A DNA stretch of 64,000 nt from Planctomycetota bacterium (GTDB taxonomy: Bacteria; Planctomycetota; Phycisphaerae; Phycisphaerales; UBA1924), in assembly GCA_033763975.1 (NCBI GenBank), contig JANRJM010000018.1, positions 248,001-312,000 on the forward strand. Direction: 5' to 3'. Both the position numbers and the translations under genes were made by a program. Shown here one piece after another: positions 10,053-44,010 of this stretch. Below the pieces are notes generated by a model. The model was not told the DNA's origin, did no database searches, and was given only the letters and a program-made list of their open reading frames with translations. The stretch's first letter is position 1; each line of letters starts with the position of its first letter.

Positions 10053-13000
10053 ATGGCCGGGAAGCTGCAGGAGGTGTTTGAGCACGTGGTCGGCCTCGAG
10101 CGGGCCGAGCGCGAGGCATACCTCGACACCGCGTGCGGCGGCGACGCGGTGCTGCGGGCGGAGGTGGAGGCACTCTTGCGTGCGCACGACGGCGCCGCGA
10201 ACTTCATGGCATCGCCCACGGCTGATTCCTCGGCCGGGGCCATGCTGACGGTTGTGACGCCGTCGGCGGCCGCGACCGTCGACGGGGGGCTGCGTGAGGG
10301 ACCGGGCAGCAGGATCGGGCCGTACAAGGTCCTGCAGCTCATCGGCGAGGGCGGCTTTGGCTCGGTGTTCATGGCAGAGCAGGCGAAGCCGGTCTTGCGC
10401 AAGGTCGCGCTCAAGATCATCAAGCTGGGGATGGACACGCGCCAGGTGGTGGCGAGGTTCGAGCAGGAGCGGCAGGCGCTGGCGATGATGGACCACCCCA
10501 ACATCGCGCGGGTGCTGGATGCCGGCGCGACCGACACCGGACGGCCCTTCTTCGTCATGGAGTTGGTCAAGGGCGACCCGATCGTTGAGTATTGCGACAA
10601 GCACAACCTGAGCATCGAGGATCGGCTTGAGTTGTTCGCGCAGGTGTGCAACGCCGTGCAGCACGCGCACACCAAGGGGATCATCCACCGCGACATCAAG
10701 CCCAGCAACGTGCTGGTGAGCACGCAGGATGGCAAGCCGCACGCCAAGGTCATTGACTTCGGCATCGCGAAGGCCACGGCGAGCAAACTGACGGAGAAGA
10801 CGCTCTTCACGGAGCACCGCCAGTTGATCGGCACGCCGGAGTACATGAGCCCGGAGCAGGCGGAAGGCTCGCTTGACATCGACACGCGGACGGATGTCTA
10901 CAGCCTCGGCGTGCTGCTCTACGAGCTGCTCACGGGAACGACGCCCTTCAGCAGCAACGAGCTGCGTTCGGCGGCCTACGCGGAGATTCAGCGGATCATC
11001 CGCGAGGTTGAACCGCCCAAGCCCAGCACACGTCTGAGCCAGAACGCGGACACCATCGCGAGCATCGCCGCGAAGCGGCAGATCGAGCCCAGGCGCCTCG
11101 GCACGCTGGTGCGGGGCGAGCTGGACTGGATCGTGATGAAGGCGTTGGAGAAGGACCGCCAACGCCGGTACGAAACTCCCAGCGGGCTGGCCGCGGACAT
11201 CTCTCGGTACCTGAGCGGCGAGGCGGTGGTGGCCGCGCCGCCGAGCAACGCGTACCGCGTCAAGAAGTTCGTCGCGCGGAACAAGGGCCCCGTGCTGGCG
11301 GGGAGCGCGGTGGCCGCGGCGCTGATCTTCGGGCTTGCCGGCACGGCGTGGCAGGCAAAGGTCGCGAGCGAGCAGCGCGACGTCGCGCTCGCGGCGCAGA
11401 TCGCGGAAGCCGATCAGCGCCGGCAGGCCGAACTGGCGCGCGCGGAGGCGCTGGAGCAGAAGGCGCGCGCCGAGGCGAACGAGGCCGAGGCGAGGTTGCA
11501 GAAGCGCATCGCTGAGGGCGTGGTGAAGTTTCAGTCCGACATGCTCGCCGCGGTCGATCCGTTCAGCCTTCCCAAGGACCCCAAGACCGGCGAGCCGCTG
11601 AAGGACCGCGTTACGGTGCTGCAGGCGCTCGAGGCCGCCCTGAACGCCATCGACGAGGGGTCGCTCGACGGCCAGCCGCTGGTCGAGGCGGGCGTGCGAA
11701 GCACCATCGGCAACACGCTGCTCGCGCTGGGGCGCTATCAAGAAGCCTTGCCCGTGCTGCAACGGGCGCTGGAACTTCGACGGGCGAGCACTCCCGGCGG
11801 CAGCCTCGAACTCTCTCAGAGCCTCGACTCGCTCGCGTCGATCCACCAGTACCTGTCGAAGCACGCCGACGCCGTGCGGCTCTACCGCGAAGCGCTCGAG
11901 ATGCGTCAGCGATTCTCGCCCGCGGGCGATCCACTGATCGGCATCGCGATGGGGAATCTCGGCCAGAGCCTGTGGGCACTCGGCGAGTTTGCCGAGGCGG
12001 AGTCGCTCCTGCGCGGGGCGCTGGCCATCGAGCTGGACCAGCCCTCGAAGGCTCCCGGTGATCGGGCACACATACTCGACAATCTGGCGAAGGTTCTGAC
12101 CGAGCTCACCAAGCTCGACGAGGCCGAACAGCACATGCGAGCGGCGCTCGACCTGCGCATCGCCGCGTTTCCGCCCGGGCACCCCGAGATCGCTATGGGC
12201 GAGGGCAATCTCGCCACGGTGCTGATCGCCGCCGACAGGCACGCCGAGGCCGAGCCACTGCTGCGATCGTCCCTGGCGATTCGGCGCGCCGCGTATTCCG
12301 CCAACCACCCCGAGGTCGCCGTCAGCGTGCGAAAGCTCGCGGCTGTTCTGCGCAAGCTGGACAAACTCGCGGAGGCCGAGCCACTCTATCGCGAAGCGCT
12401 GGCGATCGACCGCGCGACGCTGCCCGCGGGGCACCCCTCGATCGCGGCATCGCTCAATGGCCTCGGGCTGCTGATGCGGGACATGAAGAAGGATGACGAG
12501 GCCGAGCCGCTGTACCGCGAAGCGCTGGCCATCCGGCGTGCGGCGTTGCCCGCCGGGCACACGGACATCGGCACTTCTCTCAACAACCTGGCGGCGCTGC
12601 TGCGCGACCAGGGCAAGCTCGACGAGGCCGAGCCGCTCTACCGCGAATCGCTGGCGATCCGCCGCGAGTCACTGCCGTCCGGGCATCCGAGCATCGCGCT
12701 GGCACTGCACAATCTGGCCAACCTGCTCGGGCAGCAGAACAAGCCCGCCGAGGCCGAGCCTTTGTTCCGCGAGGCGATCAAGATCCGTCGTGCGGCGCTG
12801 CCCGCCGGGAACGAGAGCCTCGTGAACTCGGTCAGTGGGCTCTGTGGCGTCCTGCAGGCGCAGGGAAAGTTCGCCGAGGCCGAGCCGCTCGCGGAGGAGT
12901 TGCTTGCGGGCAACCGCGCGACCCTCCCGGCGGGGCACGAGAAGATCGCGAACGCGATGAGCACCCTGGCGGCGGTGCGACACGGCCTCGGCAAAGCCGT

Positions 13001-13250
13001 CGAAGCACGCGCGGGCTGGGATGAGGCCATCGCCATCCTCCGCGCGAGGTTCCCGAACGGGTCCGCACAGCTCGCCCGCGCGCTGTGGTGTTCCGGCTCC
13101 GCCCGCTTCGAGAACAACGAGCTCTCCGCCGCTCGCGCCGAACTCGAAGAGGCTGTCGCGATGGGCGAGAAGGCGCTGCCTCCCAATCATCCATACCTCA
13201 GGGTCTACACCGAGACGCTGGCGAAGTGCAGGGCCGCGGGCGCGAAGTAA
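10053..13250 (+). CDS. Membrane Ser/Thr protein kinase with kinesin-light-chain-type TPRs
   Basis: 1065-residue protein. The N-terminus (about 1-55) matches the helical leader common in planctomycete kinases. The kinase domain covers about 90-385 with GEGGFG, VALKII, HRDIKPSNVLV, DFGIAKA and the family signature GELDWIVMKALEKDRQRRYE. One transmembrane helix lies near 412-432, then a coiled region rich in Ala/Glu/Arg. From about residue 545 there are at least ten 42-residue TPRs (EAEPLYREALAIRR...LPAGHxxIxxSLNNLA) nearly identical to each other. Likely sensing or scaffolding on the extracytoplasmic side, with the cytoplasmic kinase paired with the ECF factor 12 bases upstream. Confidence 0.95.
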   Translation: MAGKLQEVFEHVVGLERAEREAYLDTACGGDAVLRAEVEALLRAHDGAANFMASPTADSSAGAMLTVVTPSAAATVDGGLREGPGSRIGPYKVLQLIGEGGFGSVFMAEQAKPVLRKVALKIIKLGMDTRQVVARFEQERQALAMMDHPNIARVLDAGATDTGRPFFVMELVKGDPIVEYCDKHNLSIEDRLELFAQVCNAVQHAHTKGIIHRDIKPSNVLVSTQDGKPHAKVIDFGIAKATASKLTEKTLFTEHRQLIGTPEYMSPEQAEGSLDIDTRTDVYSLGVLLYELLTGTTPFSSNELRSAAYAEIQRIIREVEPPKPSTRLSQNADTIASIAAKRQIEPRRLGTLVRGELDWIVMKALEKDRQRRYETPSGLAADISRYLSGEAVVAAPPSNAYRVKKFVARNKGPVLAGSAVAAALIFGLAGTAWQAKVASEQRDVALAAQIAEADQRRQAELARAEALEQKARAEANEAEARLQKRIAEGVVKFQSDMLAAVDPFSLPKDPKTGEPLKDRVTVLQALEAALNAIDEGSLDGQPLVEAGVRSTIGNTLLALGRYQEALPVLQRALELRRASTPGGSLELSQSLDSLASIHQYLSKHADAVRLYREALEMRQRFSPAGDPLIGIAMGNLGQSLWALGEFAEAESLLRGALAIELDQPSKAPGDRAHILDNLAKVLTELTKLDEAEQHMRAALDLRIAAFPPGHPEIAMGEGNLATVLIAADRHAEAEPLLRSSLAIRRAAYSANHPEVAVSVRKLAAVLRKLDKLAEAEPLYREALAIDRATLPAGHPSIAASLNGLGLLMRDMKKDDEAEPLYREALAIRRAALPAGHTDIGTSLNNLAALLRDQGKLDEAEPLYRESLAIRRESLPSGHPSIALALHNLANLLGQQNKPAEAEPLFREAIKIRRAALPAGNESLVNSVSGLCGVLQAQGKFAEAEPLAEELLAGNRATLPAGHEKIANAMSTLAAVRHGLGKAVEARAGWDEAIAILRARFPNGSAQLARALWCSGSARFENNELSAARAELEEAVAMGEKALPPNHPYLRVYTETLAKCRAAGAK
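12120..12900 (+). repeat. Tandem 126-bp coding repeats (TPR array)
   Basis: Within the kinase gene, consecutive 42-codon units keep the same order: GAGGCCGAGCC, CTCTACCGCGAAGCGCTGGC, then GCGCTGCCCGCCGGGCAC, with high nucleotide identity between neighbours. Boundaries are approximate. The near identity suggests recent unit duplication or gene conversion. Confidence 0.7.
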
Positions 13251-13936: not shown

Positions 13937-14761
13937 CTAGGGCACCCGCGACGCGACCAGCACGCTGACGTGATCGACGATTTCGAGCGTCTGCGCGTCC
14001 GGGTTGGCGCCGGAGAACCGGACGCGCACCGCCGGCGCACCGGCGGGGAAGAAGGTGTGACTGCCCGCGTGGCGAAGCACGCCCGCCTGCTCGCCGTTCA
14101 CGCGGAGGATCAGGTCGCCGTTGTTGTTCAGGCGAATCTCGACACCGGGCCCGTCGGGCGCGGTGTTCGCGAACCGGCCGACATACGCACGCTTCTGATC
14201 GTCGGCGAGCGGCGTCGTCTCGGGCCGCACGCCCGCGTCGCCCAGGCTCTCGAGGAACGCGAGCGTTTCGGCGGCGGGCTCGCCGCCGGCCTGCGCGTGC
14301 GCCAGCAGCGGGATCCCGTGCGGGCCCGGCGTGCGCTGGATGCCCGGCGATGCGGCGATCATCGCGCGGACGGCCTGTGTGTGCCCGAGCATCGCGGCCG
14401 CGAAGATGTCCAGGCGTGCACCCCGCTCCAGGAGCAACTCGGCGATGTTGCGTCGCCCGGTGTGCGCGGCGGCGCCGAGCGCCGTCTCGAAATCGCCGAA
14501 CCCCCAGTCCCAAGTCGCGTTCACCAGGGCGGGATACTGATCGAGCAACTCTCGCGCCCGGTCGATATCGCGGTGGCAGACGCCGACCAGCTCGCGCACG
14601 CGGTCCGCCGGCTGGCGGGGAAAGTCGGCCGCGACCGGCGTGCGCGCGGGCGCGTCGGAATCGTCGACCAGGGCCGTGGCGCGCCCAGACAGCCCGAGGA
14701 TGCCCGCGGCCGCACACGCACCCGGAGCGACGGTCAGGAAGCCACGACGTGAAAGCGCCAT
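13937..14761 (-). CDS. Tat-signal ankyrin-repeat protein
   Basis: 274-residue protein starting with a twin-arginine motif (SRRGFLTVAPG) and a hydrophobic stretch, so exported. The middle contains ankyrin-type repeats: ELVGVCHRDIDRARELLDQY, ETALGAAAHTGRRNIAELLL and AAAMLGHTQAVRAMIAA. The C-terminal third (EIRLNNNGDLILRVNGEQ...VRVRFSG) looks like a small beta domain of unknown type. GAGG is spaced 7 bases from ATG 14761. It is divergent from the arsenic operon and precedes the VOC gene; a role beyond protein or ligand binding cannot be assigned. Confidence 0.8.
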   Translation of the reverse strand: MALSRRGFLTVAPGACAAAGILGLSGRATALVDDSDAPARTPVAADFPRQPADRVRELVGVCHRDIDRARELLDQYPALVNATWDWGFGDFETALGAAAHTGRRNIAELLLERGARLDIFAAAMLGHTQAVRAMIAASPGIQRTPGPHGIPLLAHAQAGGEPAAETLAFLESLGDAGVRPETTPLADDQKRAYVGRFANTAPDGPGVEIRLNNNGDLILRVNGEQAGVLRHAGSHTFFPAGAPAVRVRFSGANPDAQTLEIVDHVSVLVASRVP

Positions 14762-15128
14762 GTGTGTGCCTCGCGTGGGGTGACAGGTTCGAGAGTTCAG
14801 CGCCCGCCCTTGCCGCGCACTGTAGCCGCCGGTCGTGCGCGATCGCACGGAGCCGGAGGTTGAGGCGGCATCACGCGAAGCCCGTGCGTGCATCGCGCCG
14901 GCTCAGGATGAGACGTCGCGTCGAAGTGCCGTCTCTTATCCGCGCGATTCTGCATGACCATCGGCGAGCCCGAGAGGTGGCGATGCCGCCCGGCTCCCCG
15001 TGGGATGACGTGTGACTCCGCCTGTGCCTGACGCCCGAGAACACGGAGGGGACGACGTCCACTCTGGGGCGGGGCGGACGCGCGTCGTTCGGGCCGCGTC
15101 GCCTTGACTCCCGGCAACGCGGCGCCAA
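14762..15128. other. Intergenic region between ankyrin gene and arsR
   Basis: About 370 bases of divergent leader sequence. Frames on both strands exist but are rich in Arg and Pro, show no recognisable domain and look like GC-driven shadows. The only signal seen is the palindrome at the arsR start, listed separately. Confidence 0.4.
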
Positions 15129-15150
15129 TACTTGCATCGTGACGCAAATA
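15129..15150 (+). promoter_or_regulatory. Imperfect palindrome over the arsR start, putative ArsR operator
   Basis: TACTTGC-ATCGTGAC-GCAAATA is a 22-base imperfect inverted repeat (16 of 22 positions match its own complement) that includes the GTG start codon of arsR. ArsR repressors usually autoregulate by binding such a site over their own promoter; binding here is inferred. Confidence 0.45.
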
Positions 15151-15522
15151 CGCAAACGACCGCCCGCGACCCCCCGCCAGGCCGCCGCCCGAAGAGGGCC
15201 GATCGACCGGCGTCTGGACCCGGCGTTATTCAAGGCCCTGGCGGACCCGACCCGGGCGATGCTGGTGGCGTGCATCGCGAAGTGCGCGCGGGGGTGCACG
15301 GTGGGAGAGATGGCCGAGTGCTGCGACGTGGACGTCTCGGTGGTGTCGCGCCACCTGGCGCTGCTCGCCCGCGCGGGCGTGCTCGAGGCCCGGCGCAAGG
15401 GGCGGACGGTGTCGTACCGCGTGCGGTCCGGAGAGTTGTGCCGCGCGCTGCGAGAACTGGCGGACGCGCTCGAGGCGTGTGCGCCGGCGGAGGAAGGAGG
15501 GTGCGATGGCACCTGCTGCTGA
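15139..15522 (+). CDS. arsR: ArsR-family metalloregulator
   Basis: 127-residue winged-helix repressor with LFKALADPTRAMLVACIA, VSVVSRHLALLARAGVLEAR and KGRTVSYRV, the normal ArsR/SmtB layout. Ten cysteines are present; notable ones are Cys45, Cys49, Cys53, Cys61 and Cys62 around the recognition region and a C-terminal CDGTCC (122, 126, 127). This resembles ArsR proteins that bind As(III) through cysteines other than the classic ELCVCDL motif. The GTG start lies inside a palindrome. The downstream arsC start overlaps its 3' end by 17 bases, so the genes are translationally coupled. Expected to repress the operon until As(III) binds. Confidence 0.9.
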   Translation: MTQIRKRPPATPRQAAARRGPIDRRLDPALFKALADPTRAMLVACIAKCARGCTVGEMAECCDVDVSVVSRHLALLARAGVLEARRKGRTVSYRVRSGELCRALRELADALEACAPAEEGGCDGTCC

Positions 15523-16888
15523 GCGCCCCGCCGTGCTGTTCCTCTGCACGGGCAACTCCTGCCGAAGCCAGATGGCCGAGGGATGGGCCCGCGCCCTGCA
15601 CGCCGGGCGCTTCGACGCCTACTCGGCGGGCACGCAGCCGCACGGCCTCAACCCGCTCGCGGTGCGGGTGATGGCCGAGGCGGGCGTCGACATCTCGCGC
15701 CACGCGTCGAAGACCGCCGCGTCGCTGGCGGGCGTGCCCATCGACCTGATCGTCACGGTGTGCGACCGCGCGCACGAAGCCTGCCCGCTGTTCTCGGAGT
15801 ACACGCGGACGGTGCACGCGCCCTTCGACGACCCGCCGCGACTGGCGGCGCACGCGGCCAGCGACGACGACGCCCTGCCGCACTATCGGCGGGTTCGTGA
15901 CGAGATCCGCCGATTCGTGGAAGCACTGCCCCAGACCCTCTTTGGAGACTCGACCATGACGAAGCGTTCATGCTGCGACGATTCCTGCTGCCCCCCGGCG
16001 ACCGCTGCAACGACCACCGTGACGGCCGCCGCCGCCACCGCGCCCCTTGCCTCGACGGCCGACATCGTCCGCGAACAGGTCCGCGCGGGGTACGCGAAGA
16101 TCGCCGGCGGGGGCTGCTGCGGCCCCAGCGGGAGCGGCGGGGGCTGCTGCGGGGCGACGGCGTTCTCGCCCGACCAGCTCGCGCAGGCGATCGGCTACGC
16201 GAGCGGCGAACTCTCGGCCGTGCCGGACGGCGCCAACATGGGCCTTTCGTGCGGCAACCCCACGGCCATCGCATCGCTCCGTCCCGGCGAGGTCGTGCTC
16301 GATCTCGGCTCCGGCGGCGGGTTCGACTGCTTCGTCGCCGGACCCAAGGTCGGCGCCGCCGGGCGCGTCATCGGCGTCGACATGACCCCCGACATGCTCG
16401 CCAAGGCCCGACGCAACACCGCGTCGTACCGCGCGCAGACCGGGCTCGACAACGTCGAGTTCCGCCTGGGCGAGATCGAGTCGCTGCCCGCGGGCGATGC
16501 GAGCGTCGACGTGGTGATCTCCAACTGCGTGCTGAACCTCTCGCCCGACAAGGCGCGCGTGTGGCGTGAGATCGCCCGCGTGCTCAAGCCCGGCGGACGA
16601 GTGGCCGTGTCGGACCTCGCGCTCGTCCGCCCGCTGCCCGACGCGGTGCGCGACGATGTCGAGGCGCTCATCGGGTGCGTCGCCGGCGCGGTGCTCGTGG
16701 AAGAAACCCGCGCGATGGCCGCGGCGGCGGGGCTCAGCGATATCACGCTCACGCCCAAGCCCCAGTACATCGACGCGATGACGAACTGGGAAGACCCGCT
16801 GTACCGGCGGATCGTCGAGAAGCTGCCCGCGGGCTCCAAGCCGAGCGACTTCGTCACGAGCCTGGACGTCTCGGCGGTGAAGCGCTGA
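15506..16888 (+). CDS. arsC-arsM: Arsenate reductase fused in frame to As(III) methyltransferase
   Basis: One uninterrupted frame of 460 residues. Residues 1-150 are a thioredoxin-coupled, LMW-phosphatase-type arsenate reductase: P-loop C14-TGNSC-R20, relay cysteines 86 and 93 in VCDRAHEACPLF and the acid loop APFDDPP. Residue 151 begins a complete ArsM: Cys-rich leader (CCDDSCC, GGCCG twice), SAM motif VLDLGSGGGFDCFVAG, and the three conserved As(III)-binding cysteines at 249 (LSCGNP), 341 (VISNCVLNLS) and 391 (IGCVAG). AAGGAGG lies 5 bases before ATG 15506. An internal ATG at 15956 has GGAG 8 bases upstream, so separate ArsM could also be made. The product would reduce As(V) and methylate As(III). 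Confidence 0.9.
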   Translation: MAPAAERPAVLFLCTGNSCRSQMAEGWARALHAGRFDAYSAGTQPHGLNPLAVRVMAEAGVDISRHASKTAASLAGVPIDLIVTVCDRAHEACPLFSEYTRTVHAPFDDPPRLAAHAASDDDALPHYRRVRDEIRRFVEALPQTLFGDSTMTKRSCCDDSCCPPATAATTTVTAAAATAPLASTADIVREQVRAGYAKIAGGGCCGPSGSGGGCCGATAFSPDQLAQAIGYASGELSAVPDGANMGLSCGNPTAIASLRPGEVVLDLGSGGGFDCFVAGPKVGAAGRVIGVDMTPDMLAKARRNTASYRAQTGLDNVEFRLGEIESLPAGDASVDVVISNCVLNLSPDKARVWREIARVLKPGGRVAVSDLALVRPLPDAVRDDVEALIGCVAGAVLVEETRAMAAAAGLSDITLTPKPQYIDAMTNWEDPLYRRIVEKLPAGSKPSDFVTSLDVSAVKR

Positions 16889-16895
16889 GCGTCGT

Positions 16896-19761
<2,866 letters not shown>

Positions 19762-43375: not shown

Positions 43376-43702
43376 TTATCGCCGGCCCGGGCCGCGCTCG
43401 CGCCGGATGCGCATGGCCTCGCCGACTTCGTGCCCGGCGAAGCGCATGCCGAGCACCTGCGCCACCCAGGGGATGGCGACCATGGCGATGCGGGCGATCA
43501 TGACGAGCCCCGCGAGGCTGCCGAGCGTCGGGGCGGGGGGCGGCGGGACGGCGCGGTAGCGGATGACCGGGCGGTTGACGATGAAGAGCGCCATGCCGGC
43601 GGCGAAGAGGGAGAGCCCGACGGCGGTGCGGGCTTTGTTCCGCTCGCCGGACTTGCGCCCGAAGTCGAGCAGTTCCTGCTTGGCGACGCGGGTGGTGTTC
43701 AT
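43376..43702 (-). CDS. Small two-helix membrane protein
   Basis: 108 residues, family not identified. After a charged N-terminus (ELLDFGRKSGERNKARTA) come two hydrophobic segments, VGLSLFAAGMALFIVNRPV and LAGLVMIARIAMVAIPWVAQ, and a basic C-terminus. Its ATG overlaps the TGA of the upstream holin-like gene (ATGA), so the two are translationally coupled. Probably an envelope stress component with its neighbours. Confidence 0.75.
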   Translation of the reverse strand: MNTTRVAKQELLDFGRKSGERNKARTAVGLSLFAAGMALFIVNRPVIRYRAVPPPPAPTLGSLAGLVMIARIAMVAIPWVAQVLGMRFAGHEVGEAMRIRRERGPGRR

Positions 43703-44010
43703 GACGACAGCATCCGTCGTGCCTGCAGCACGCACCCGACGCCGATGAGCAGCCCCGCGCCGCCCGCCGCCACGGCGCCCCAGGCCTGCCCGGCGACTTC
43801 ACGCACGGCGAAGTAGATGGCGCCGAGCCAGAACAGGACGCCGATGAGGATGATGATGCCCCCGCCGGCGGCGGTGAGCAGGCCGACGCCGAGCCCGGCG
43901 ACGCTGTCGCGCATCCGACGGGTGTCGGCGTGCACGACGTCGTACGCCGCCCGGGCTTCGGCCTCCAACAAGTTGGTGACCTTGACGATGAACTCGGTCA
44001 CGTCCTTCAC
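43699..44010 (-). CDS. Holin-superfamily/DUF1469-like membrane protein
   Basis: 103 residues. An amphipathic N-terminal helix (VKVTNLLEAEARAAYDVVHA) precedes two helices with GLLTAAGGGIIILIGVLFWL and GAVAAGGAGLLIGVGCVLQA. The layout matches the phage-holin-like/DUF1469 family, often found beside DUF883 genes, as here. The GTG start has AAGGAG 6 bases upstream. Together with the DUF883 protein it probably acts at the cytoplasmic membrane under stress; no phage genes are nearby, so a lysis role is unlikely. Confidence 0.78.
   Translation of the reverse strand: MKDVTEFIVKVTNLLEAEARAAYDVVHADTRRMRDSVAGLGVGLLTAAGGGIIILIGVLFWLGAIYFAVREVAGQAWGAVAAGGAGLLIGVGCVLQARRMLSS

Follow-up and report, generated by a model that had tools for sequence, protein, structure and literature searches.

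The locus described here raises the question of whether a bacterial genome can encode one protein that both reduces and methylates arsenic. In the window (the whole stretch of Planctomycetota DNA analysed, 64,000 nucleotides in length), an ATG-to-TGA frame on the forward strand (15506-16888; 460 codons plus TGA) translates into 460 amino acids with no internal stop, and joins an arsenate reductase (ArsC) to an arsenite methyltransferase (ArsM). The initial annotation had claimed such a stop-free arsC-arsM frame at this place, and the translation, the residues it named and the domain matches all agree. In what follows, the window's fusion is locus L001 and its genome is G000.

The fused gene is the second of two closely packed forward-strand genes. 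The first, arsR (15139-15522), encodes a Cys-rich ArsR/SmtB-type repressor of 127 amino acids (NCBIfam NF033788, 65.9 bits, above the cut-off of 55); its 3' end shares 17 bases with the 5' start of the fusion, and it is a separate gene, lying outside the fused frame. A Shine-Dalgarno-like AAGGAGG, read from the forward strand at 15494-15500, stands 5 bases ahead of the ATG at 15506. An arsR relative is found directly upstream in all 15 fused loci known to us (weakest E value 1.3e-7, in L036), and ArsR may be expected to repress the unit formed by its own gene and the fusion. Just ahead of arsR lies a promoter-like TTGACT-17-AATACT (15104-15132), the sole such site in 14900-17100; it is a weak site, and the rules for sigma-70 promoters may be inapplicable in this organism. 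Beyond the fusion, the opposite strand carries a peroxidase-family (katG-like) frame. Further upstream, the reverse strand (13937-14893) holds a 318-codon frame with a Tat-like RRGFL stretch near its N-terminal start and no Pfam match at 1e-5, and 10053-13250 encodes a serine/threonine kinase fused with a long TPR array.

The N-terminal part of the protein (15506-15946, forward strand) has the LMW-phosphatase fold of thioredoxin-linked, pI258-like ArsC. Pfam LMWPc (PF01451) spans residues 10-140, and the P-loop C-x4-CR-S together with two further redox cysteines (C14, C19, R20, S21, C86 and C93) is present in the window and in the 14 other fused loci. This residue assignment is backed by alignment to the solved B. 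subtilis ArsC 1jl3, which the ArsC domain of the structural model also fits in a fold comparison (TM 0.90 by target length). The best ArsC model, TIGR02691, gives 128.3 bits within the fusion and 131.7 for the domain alone, both below its cut-off of 174.3. We call the domain a putative divergent relative of pI258-type ArsC, and not a strict equivalog, because the seven separately encoded relatives tested (7 of 7) likewise fall under this cut-off, at 122.6-140.7 bits. With the thioredoxin-type enzymes of pI258 and B. subtilis (TIGR02691; 1jl3, 1ljl) it shares the LMW-phosphatase fold, the P-loop Cys and Arg and the two further relay cysteines, but it scores under the model cut-off and has no terminating stop.

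The C-terminal part (residues 184-460; 16055-16885, forward strand) is an ArsM domain. NCBIfam arsenite methyltransferase NF008823 spans residues 185-425 and scores 304.1 bits for the fusion and 305.9 for the free form, above the cut-off of 263. The SAM motif DLGSGGG occupies residues 266-272, and alignment to 5evj supports D266, G268 and the three arsenic-binding cysteines C249, C341 and C391, whose counterparts in CmArsM are given as Cys 72, 174 and 224 in a passage of PMC5552862; by fold, the domain matches the group of 5evj and 4fr0. It thus has the SAM motif, the three cysteines and the above-cut-off score of known ArsM enzymes (NF008823; CmArsM 4fr0, CrArsM 5evj), and differs from these standalone proteins in bearing an N-terminal ArsC. 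All 15 fused loci retain the key residues of both halves (C14, C19, R20, S21, C86, C93 and D109 of ArsC; C249, D266, G268, C341 and C391 of ArsM).

The stop-free joining of two close genes, taken alone, is not by itself surprising. The joining observed here stands above chance, because 15 distinct loci (the window included) show it, two of them (L008 and L117) without an ATG at the junction. The initial annotation had proposed a search across Planctomycetota for proteins with both domains; an equivalent joined frame was found at 14 further distinct loci. Among 61 genomes of the relatives sample, that of the window included, four contain a stop-free full-length match (G000, G002, G046 and G037), and in G017 and G032 the match is interrupted by one TGA. 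In the order sample 161 of 400 genomes match at 1e-80, with at least 11 fused among the matches listed, which reach down to about 1e-102 (G000, G002, G216, G116, G279, G141, G302, G372, G046, G183 and G037). The class sample (115 of 397 genomes matching at 1e-95) contains seven fused genomes, G481 and G602 being new, and the phylum sample (57 of 392 at 1e-95) three, none of them new; the order, class and phylum samples overlap one another. A scan of genome contigs, covering the best 80 of 579 relatives and the only route here to other phyla, added L036 and L059; one of its loci, L033, duplicates L116 of G141. After removal of six identical loci (L116, L130, L132, L133, L136 and L164), 80 distinct adjacent or joined pairs remained, 15 fused and 65 separate, figures that are not a census, since the fused protein served as query. 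Thirteen of the 15 fused loci belong to genomes related to that of the window, while L036 comes from Hydrogenedentota and L059 from a genome labelled Paceibacterota, possibly mis-binned. As to carriage by mobile replicons, 62 plasmid records match, none covering 80% of the query, and three viral-contig loci match in the ArsM part only.

In a further ten separate loci (L006, L007, L029, L035, L044, L086 and L120-L123), arsC and arsM lie in the same frame with one stop between them, and only that stop bars joining. Read-through or selenocysteine insertion at the single TGA of L006/L007-type loci was considered and rejected: the sequence at these junctions reads like a normal end of arsC with the start of arsM behind it, and the loci were counted as separate.

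How the two frames became one is suggested by the junction. An in-frame ATG at 15956-15958 (forward strand), 450 bases past 15506, is preceded at a distance of 8 bases by a Shine-Dalgarno-like GGAG (15944-15947, forward strand), and corresponds to the arsM start position of separately encoded relatives; it is the probable start of a free ArsM of 310 amino acids. Coordinates and frame thus uphold the proposal of the initial annotation that a fusion and a free ArsM could both be produced. GGAG stands 8 bases ahead of the ATG also in L004, L033, L113, L114, L115, L118 and L137 (in L033 the scoring rule labels the site GGAGG with spacing 7). The arsM ATG lies 48 bases from the ArsC motif R-x-x-DEI in seven fused loci (L001, L004, L033, L113, L114, L118 and L137), and 47 bases from it in four loci with separate genes overlapping by ATGA (L040, L046, L126 and L128). 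That 48 and 47 differ modulo 3 follows from the definition of the two classes; the observation is that the lengths are otherwise equal. The distance is 59 to 86 bases in the remaining nine overlap loci, and 69, 51 and 66 in the fused L115, L138 and L036, respectively, while in L005 the ATG preceded by a Shine-Dalgarno-like site lies at 93. Among the 65 separate pairs the ATGA overlap, with 13, outnumbers every other single arrangement. Most likely, the fusion came from an ATGA-overlapping arsC-arsM pair, a direction of change that we infer: a change of one base in the stretch from the arsC 3' end to the arsM ATG would bring this ATG into the arsC frame and remove the stop.

The same one-base offset from four overlap junctions, in a genome available as a draft, is what would be expected if one extra base had been introduced before 15956 by sequencing or assembly. 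This explanation is nevertheless highly improbable, as the 48-base spacing is repeated in loci of six other genomes (L004, L033, L113, L114, L118 and L137) and the other fused junctions differ in make-up. The concern, voiced at the outset, that a missing or extra base near 15940-15960 separates the genes has accordingly lost most of its force, given that other assemblies carry the joined frame. The gene fusion is real and recurrent, and has a simple likely origin.

The history of the fusion was followed on a tree built from the concatenated ArsC and ArsM sequences of 75 loci, 14 of them fused, with the junction columns omitted and L044, L059, L072, L086 and L094 left out as too distant. The fused or separate label changes 9 times on this tree and 9-10 times across bootstrap trees, with 5 changes required by the well-supported branches. 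Many inner branches are weak, which leaves the count of events uncertain, and gains are indistinguishable from losses. One ancient fusion inherited by all was ruled out, since a single fused clade is rejected with p-AU 1.75e-5. The fused L138 groups, with good support, with the overlap loci L040, L046, L126 and L128. The label is also clustered beyond chance (0 of 500 shuffles as low), and some fused loci therefore share an origin. Among the relatives, the joining seems to have arisen more than once.

What the joined gene produces is a matter of prediction. The whole account that we favour, with a probability of about three in four, is that it yields a bifunctional arsenic-detoxifying protein. 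As translation from 15506 runs into no stop before 16886, the one ArsC of its type found in the genome would be made joined to the arsenite methyltransferase. To judge from the two families, the ArsC half would reduce As(V) to As(III) through a Cys14/Cys86/Cys93 relay recycled by thioredoxin, and the ArsM half would methylate As(III) with SAM via Cys249, Cys341 and Cys391. The internal ATG at 15956 probably adds some free ArsM, in which case methyltransferase would outnumber reductase. Within a single molecule, the two activities would stay together at a fixed minimum ratio.

The proportion of the two products bears on an alternative, in which two tightly packed genes were joined by accident and the result was tolerated: arsC lost its stop, the internal ATG still supplies most of the ArsM, and the fused chain functions as no more than a tailed ArsC. 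Ten of the 15 fused loci (L001, L004, L005, L033, L036, L113, L114, L115, L118 and L137) retain both the ATG and the Shine-Dalgarno-like site, as such an accident would lead one to expect. Moreover, the Gly codon bearing this site is GGA in 8 of 8 loci of this register, compared with 73 GGA among 629 Gly codons over the fused genes (a count made by eye, over loci that are not independent by descent), and among the matches listed no fused frame appears for 150 of the 161 matching genomes of the order sample. In the window the internal start is well kept, and most of the methylation could be due to free ArsM. Against this, L119, L059 and L138 have a junction ATG without a Shine-Dalgarno-like site, and L008 and L117 have no junction ATG at all, yet the ArsM cysteines and SAM motif are intact in these five, so that the fused form there is probably the working ArsM. 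(The junction ATG was picked by the best Shine-Dalgarno-like match, a rule that yields none in L008, L117, L140 and L148.) L008 and L117 each contain one GTG, within the conserved VREGY stretch of ArsM, and a start there is possible. The recurrence of the joining speaks against an accident. We regard a packing accident as possible but doubtful.

For the favoured bifunctional protein, the next point is a possible direct transfer of As(III) from one half to the other; the initial annotation had proposed that a fusion would channel As(V) through As(III) to methylated species. The AlphaFold2 model (46 rows) has a mean pLDDT of 82.5 and a pTM of 0.59, with residues 1-3, 148-182 and 203-212 under 50. 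The second of these segments is a linker (15947-16051, forward strand) that contains CC-x3-CC at residues 156-162. The model supports two predicted folded domains on a loose tether, and offers no evidence for a fixed channel or a fixed domain contact. The ArsM cysteines might still receive nascent As(III) straight from the active site of ArsC, perhaps via the linker CC-x3-CC; the order of the domains follows that of the pathway, and 9 of 15 fused loci have cysteine pairs of the form CC-x(2-5)-CC ahead of the ArsM core, which L117 retains despite its lost start codon. Such pairs, however, are shared by 19 of 65 separate loci and are lost in L008, the shortest fusion, and the linker has low model confidence. 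On this evidence, a direct transfer of the substrate is unlikely.

The fate of the As(III) depends on the other arsenic genes of the cell. Searches of the window's genome (a draft of 3.27 Mb in 19 contigs, 96.95% complete) gave no match to the pump families Acr3, ArsB and ArsP_1, for which controls matched in 7, 6 and 8 of 14 genomes, respectively, and none to the glutaredoxin-type ArsC family PF03960 (6 to 8 of 14 control genomes matched across these family searches). A protein search of the genome with the ArsC half returned the fusion as its only match. Two further LMWPc proteins are encoded; one best fits the tyrosine phosphatase model Wzb (46 bits, cut-off 243), and the LMWPc half of the other (L179) weakly best fits the arsenate reductase model PRK13530 (43 bits, cut-off 215), its second and third redox cysteines not being seen by eye. 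Arsenite is more toxic than arsenate, and for this reason a reductase without a pump would be harmful unless its As(III) were taken up. Since none of the three pump families was found, the As(III) made by the reductase is likely to be disposed of mainly by methylation. A pump could have been missed, the genome being a 96.95% complete draft and the families covered being Acr3, ArsB and ArsP_1.

Pumps are not foreign to fused loci elsewhere. An acr3 relative lies directly downstream in 6 of 15 (L005, L008, L036, L059, L119 and L137; the query was L036's own neighbour), and a family search places Acr3 next to the fusion in the L005, L008, L119 and L137 genomes. Over 57 genomes, ArsB is found in none; Acr3 is matched in 6 of the 13 with a fusion and in 23 of the 44 with a separate pair, one of these 23 scoring below cut-off (Fisher p 0.76), which leaves the fusion as a replacement for an absent pump unsupported. 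An extended account is distinctly unlikely: the gene of a repeatedly evolved reductase-methyltransferase would switch between fused and coupled two-gene forms by one-base changes to the spacer of the arsM ribosome site, would yield both a fusion and free ArsM from one frame, and its protein would hand As(III) over directly, so that a pumpless cell never releases it.

Both halves of the protein are known from other fusions. Passages of PMC6205960 and PMC6514093 report ArsR-ArsC, Acr3-ArsC, AqpS-ArsC and ArsN-ArsC proteins, which have in common with the window's protein the joining of ArsC to an arsenic-handling protein; there ArsC is paired with a regulator, with a pump or channel, or with ArsN, whereas here it is paired with the methyltransferase ArsM. 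The window's chain bears no regulator or transporter of the ArsR-ArsC, Acr3-ArsC or AqpS-ArsC kind, arsR being separate. ArsM is described as joined to another ars protein in the ArsR-ArsM fusion of Brevundimonas M20 (PMC10190100), where the partner is a repressor, and as lying within larger proteins, with other partners, in the ArsM-AhpD and ArsM-DUF2284 selenoproteins (NF041537, NF041536; PMC13188914) and in ArsM-SelD of Naegleria gruberi (PMC5552862). According to a passage of PMC12124457, arsC and arsM are co-expressed in the arsRMC operon of Arsenicibacter rosenii SM-1, but as separate genes, and 'arsCM' in PMC8515886 is an entry in a list of resistance genes that we read as arsC and arsM. 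The open-access full-text literature searched yielded no title, abstract opening or passage on an ArsC-ArsM fusion, and within that scope this agrees with the initial annotation, which was not aware of a described one. An ArsSM fusion, again with ArsM in a larger protein and with another partner, is named in the title of a cited work. As judged by sequence, the novelty would lie in the pairing of ArsC with ArsM, fusions of either with other partners being already known.

A single protein that both reduced and methylated arsenic would be a direct test object for channelled arsenic methylation, and the repeated fusions with their unfused neighbours form natural matched pairs for a test of channelling. 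The one-base step between ATGA overlap and fusion is, in addition, a clear and countable example of how a bifunctional enzyme may originate.

Other arrangements of these domains were seen as well. In the window's genome, the L179 frame (715-1914; G000:C2, about 43457-43870) combines a half resembling L-threonylcarbamoyladenylate synthase (TIGR00057, 43.9 bits, below the cut-off of 123.2) with an LMW-phosphatase half in one open frame. In a Glassbacteria record (L058, 3001-3843), two ArsC-like stretches, with 67% and 46% identity to that of the window, lie in tandem ahead of arsM.
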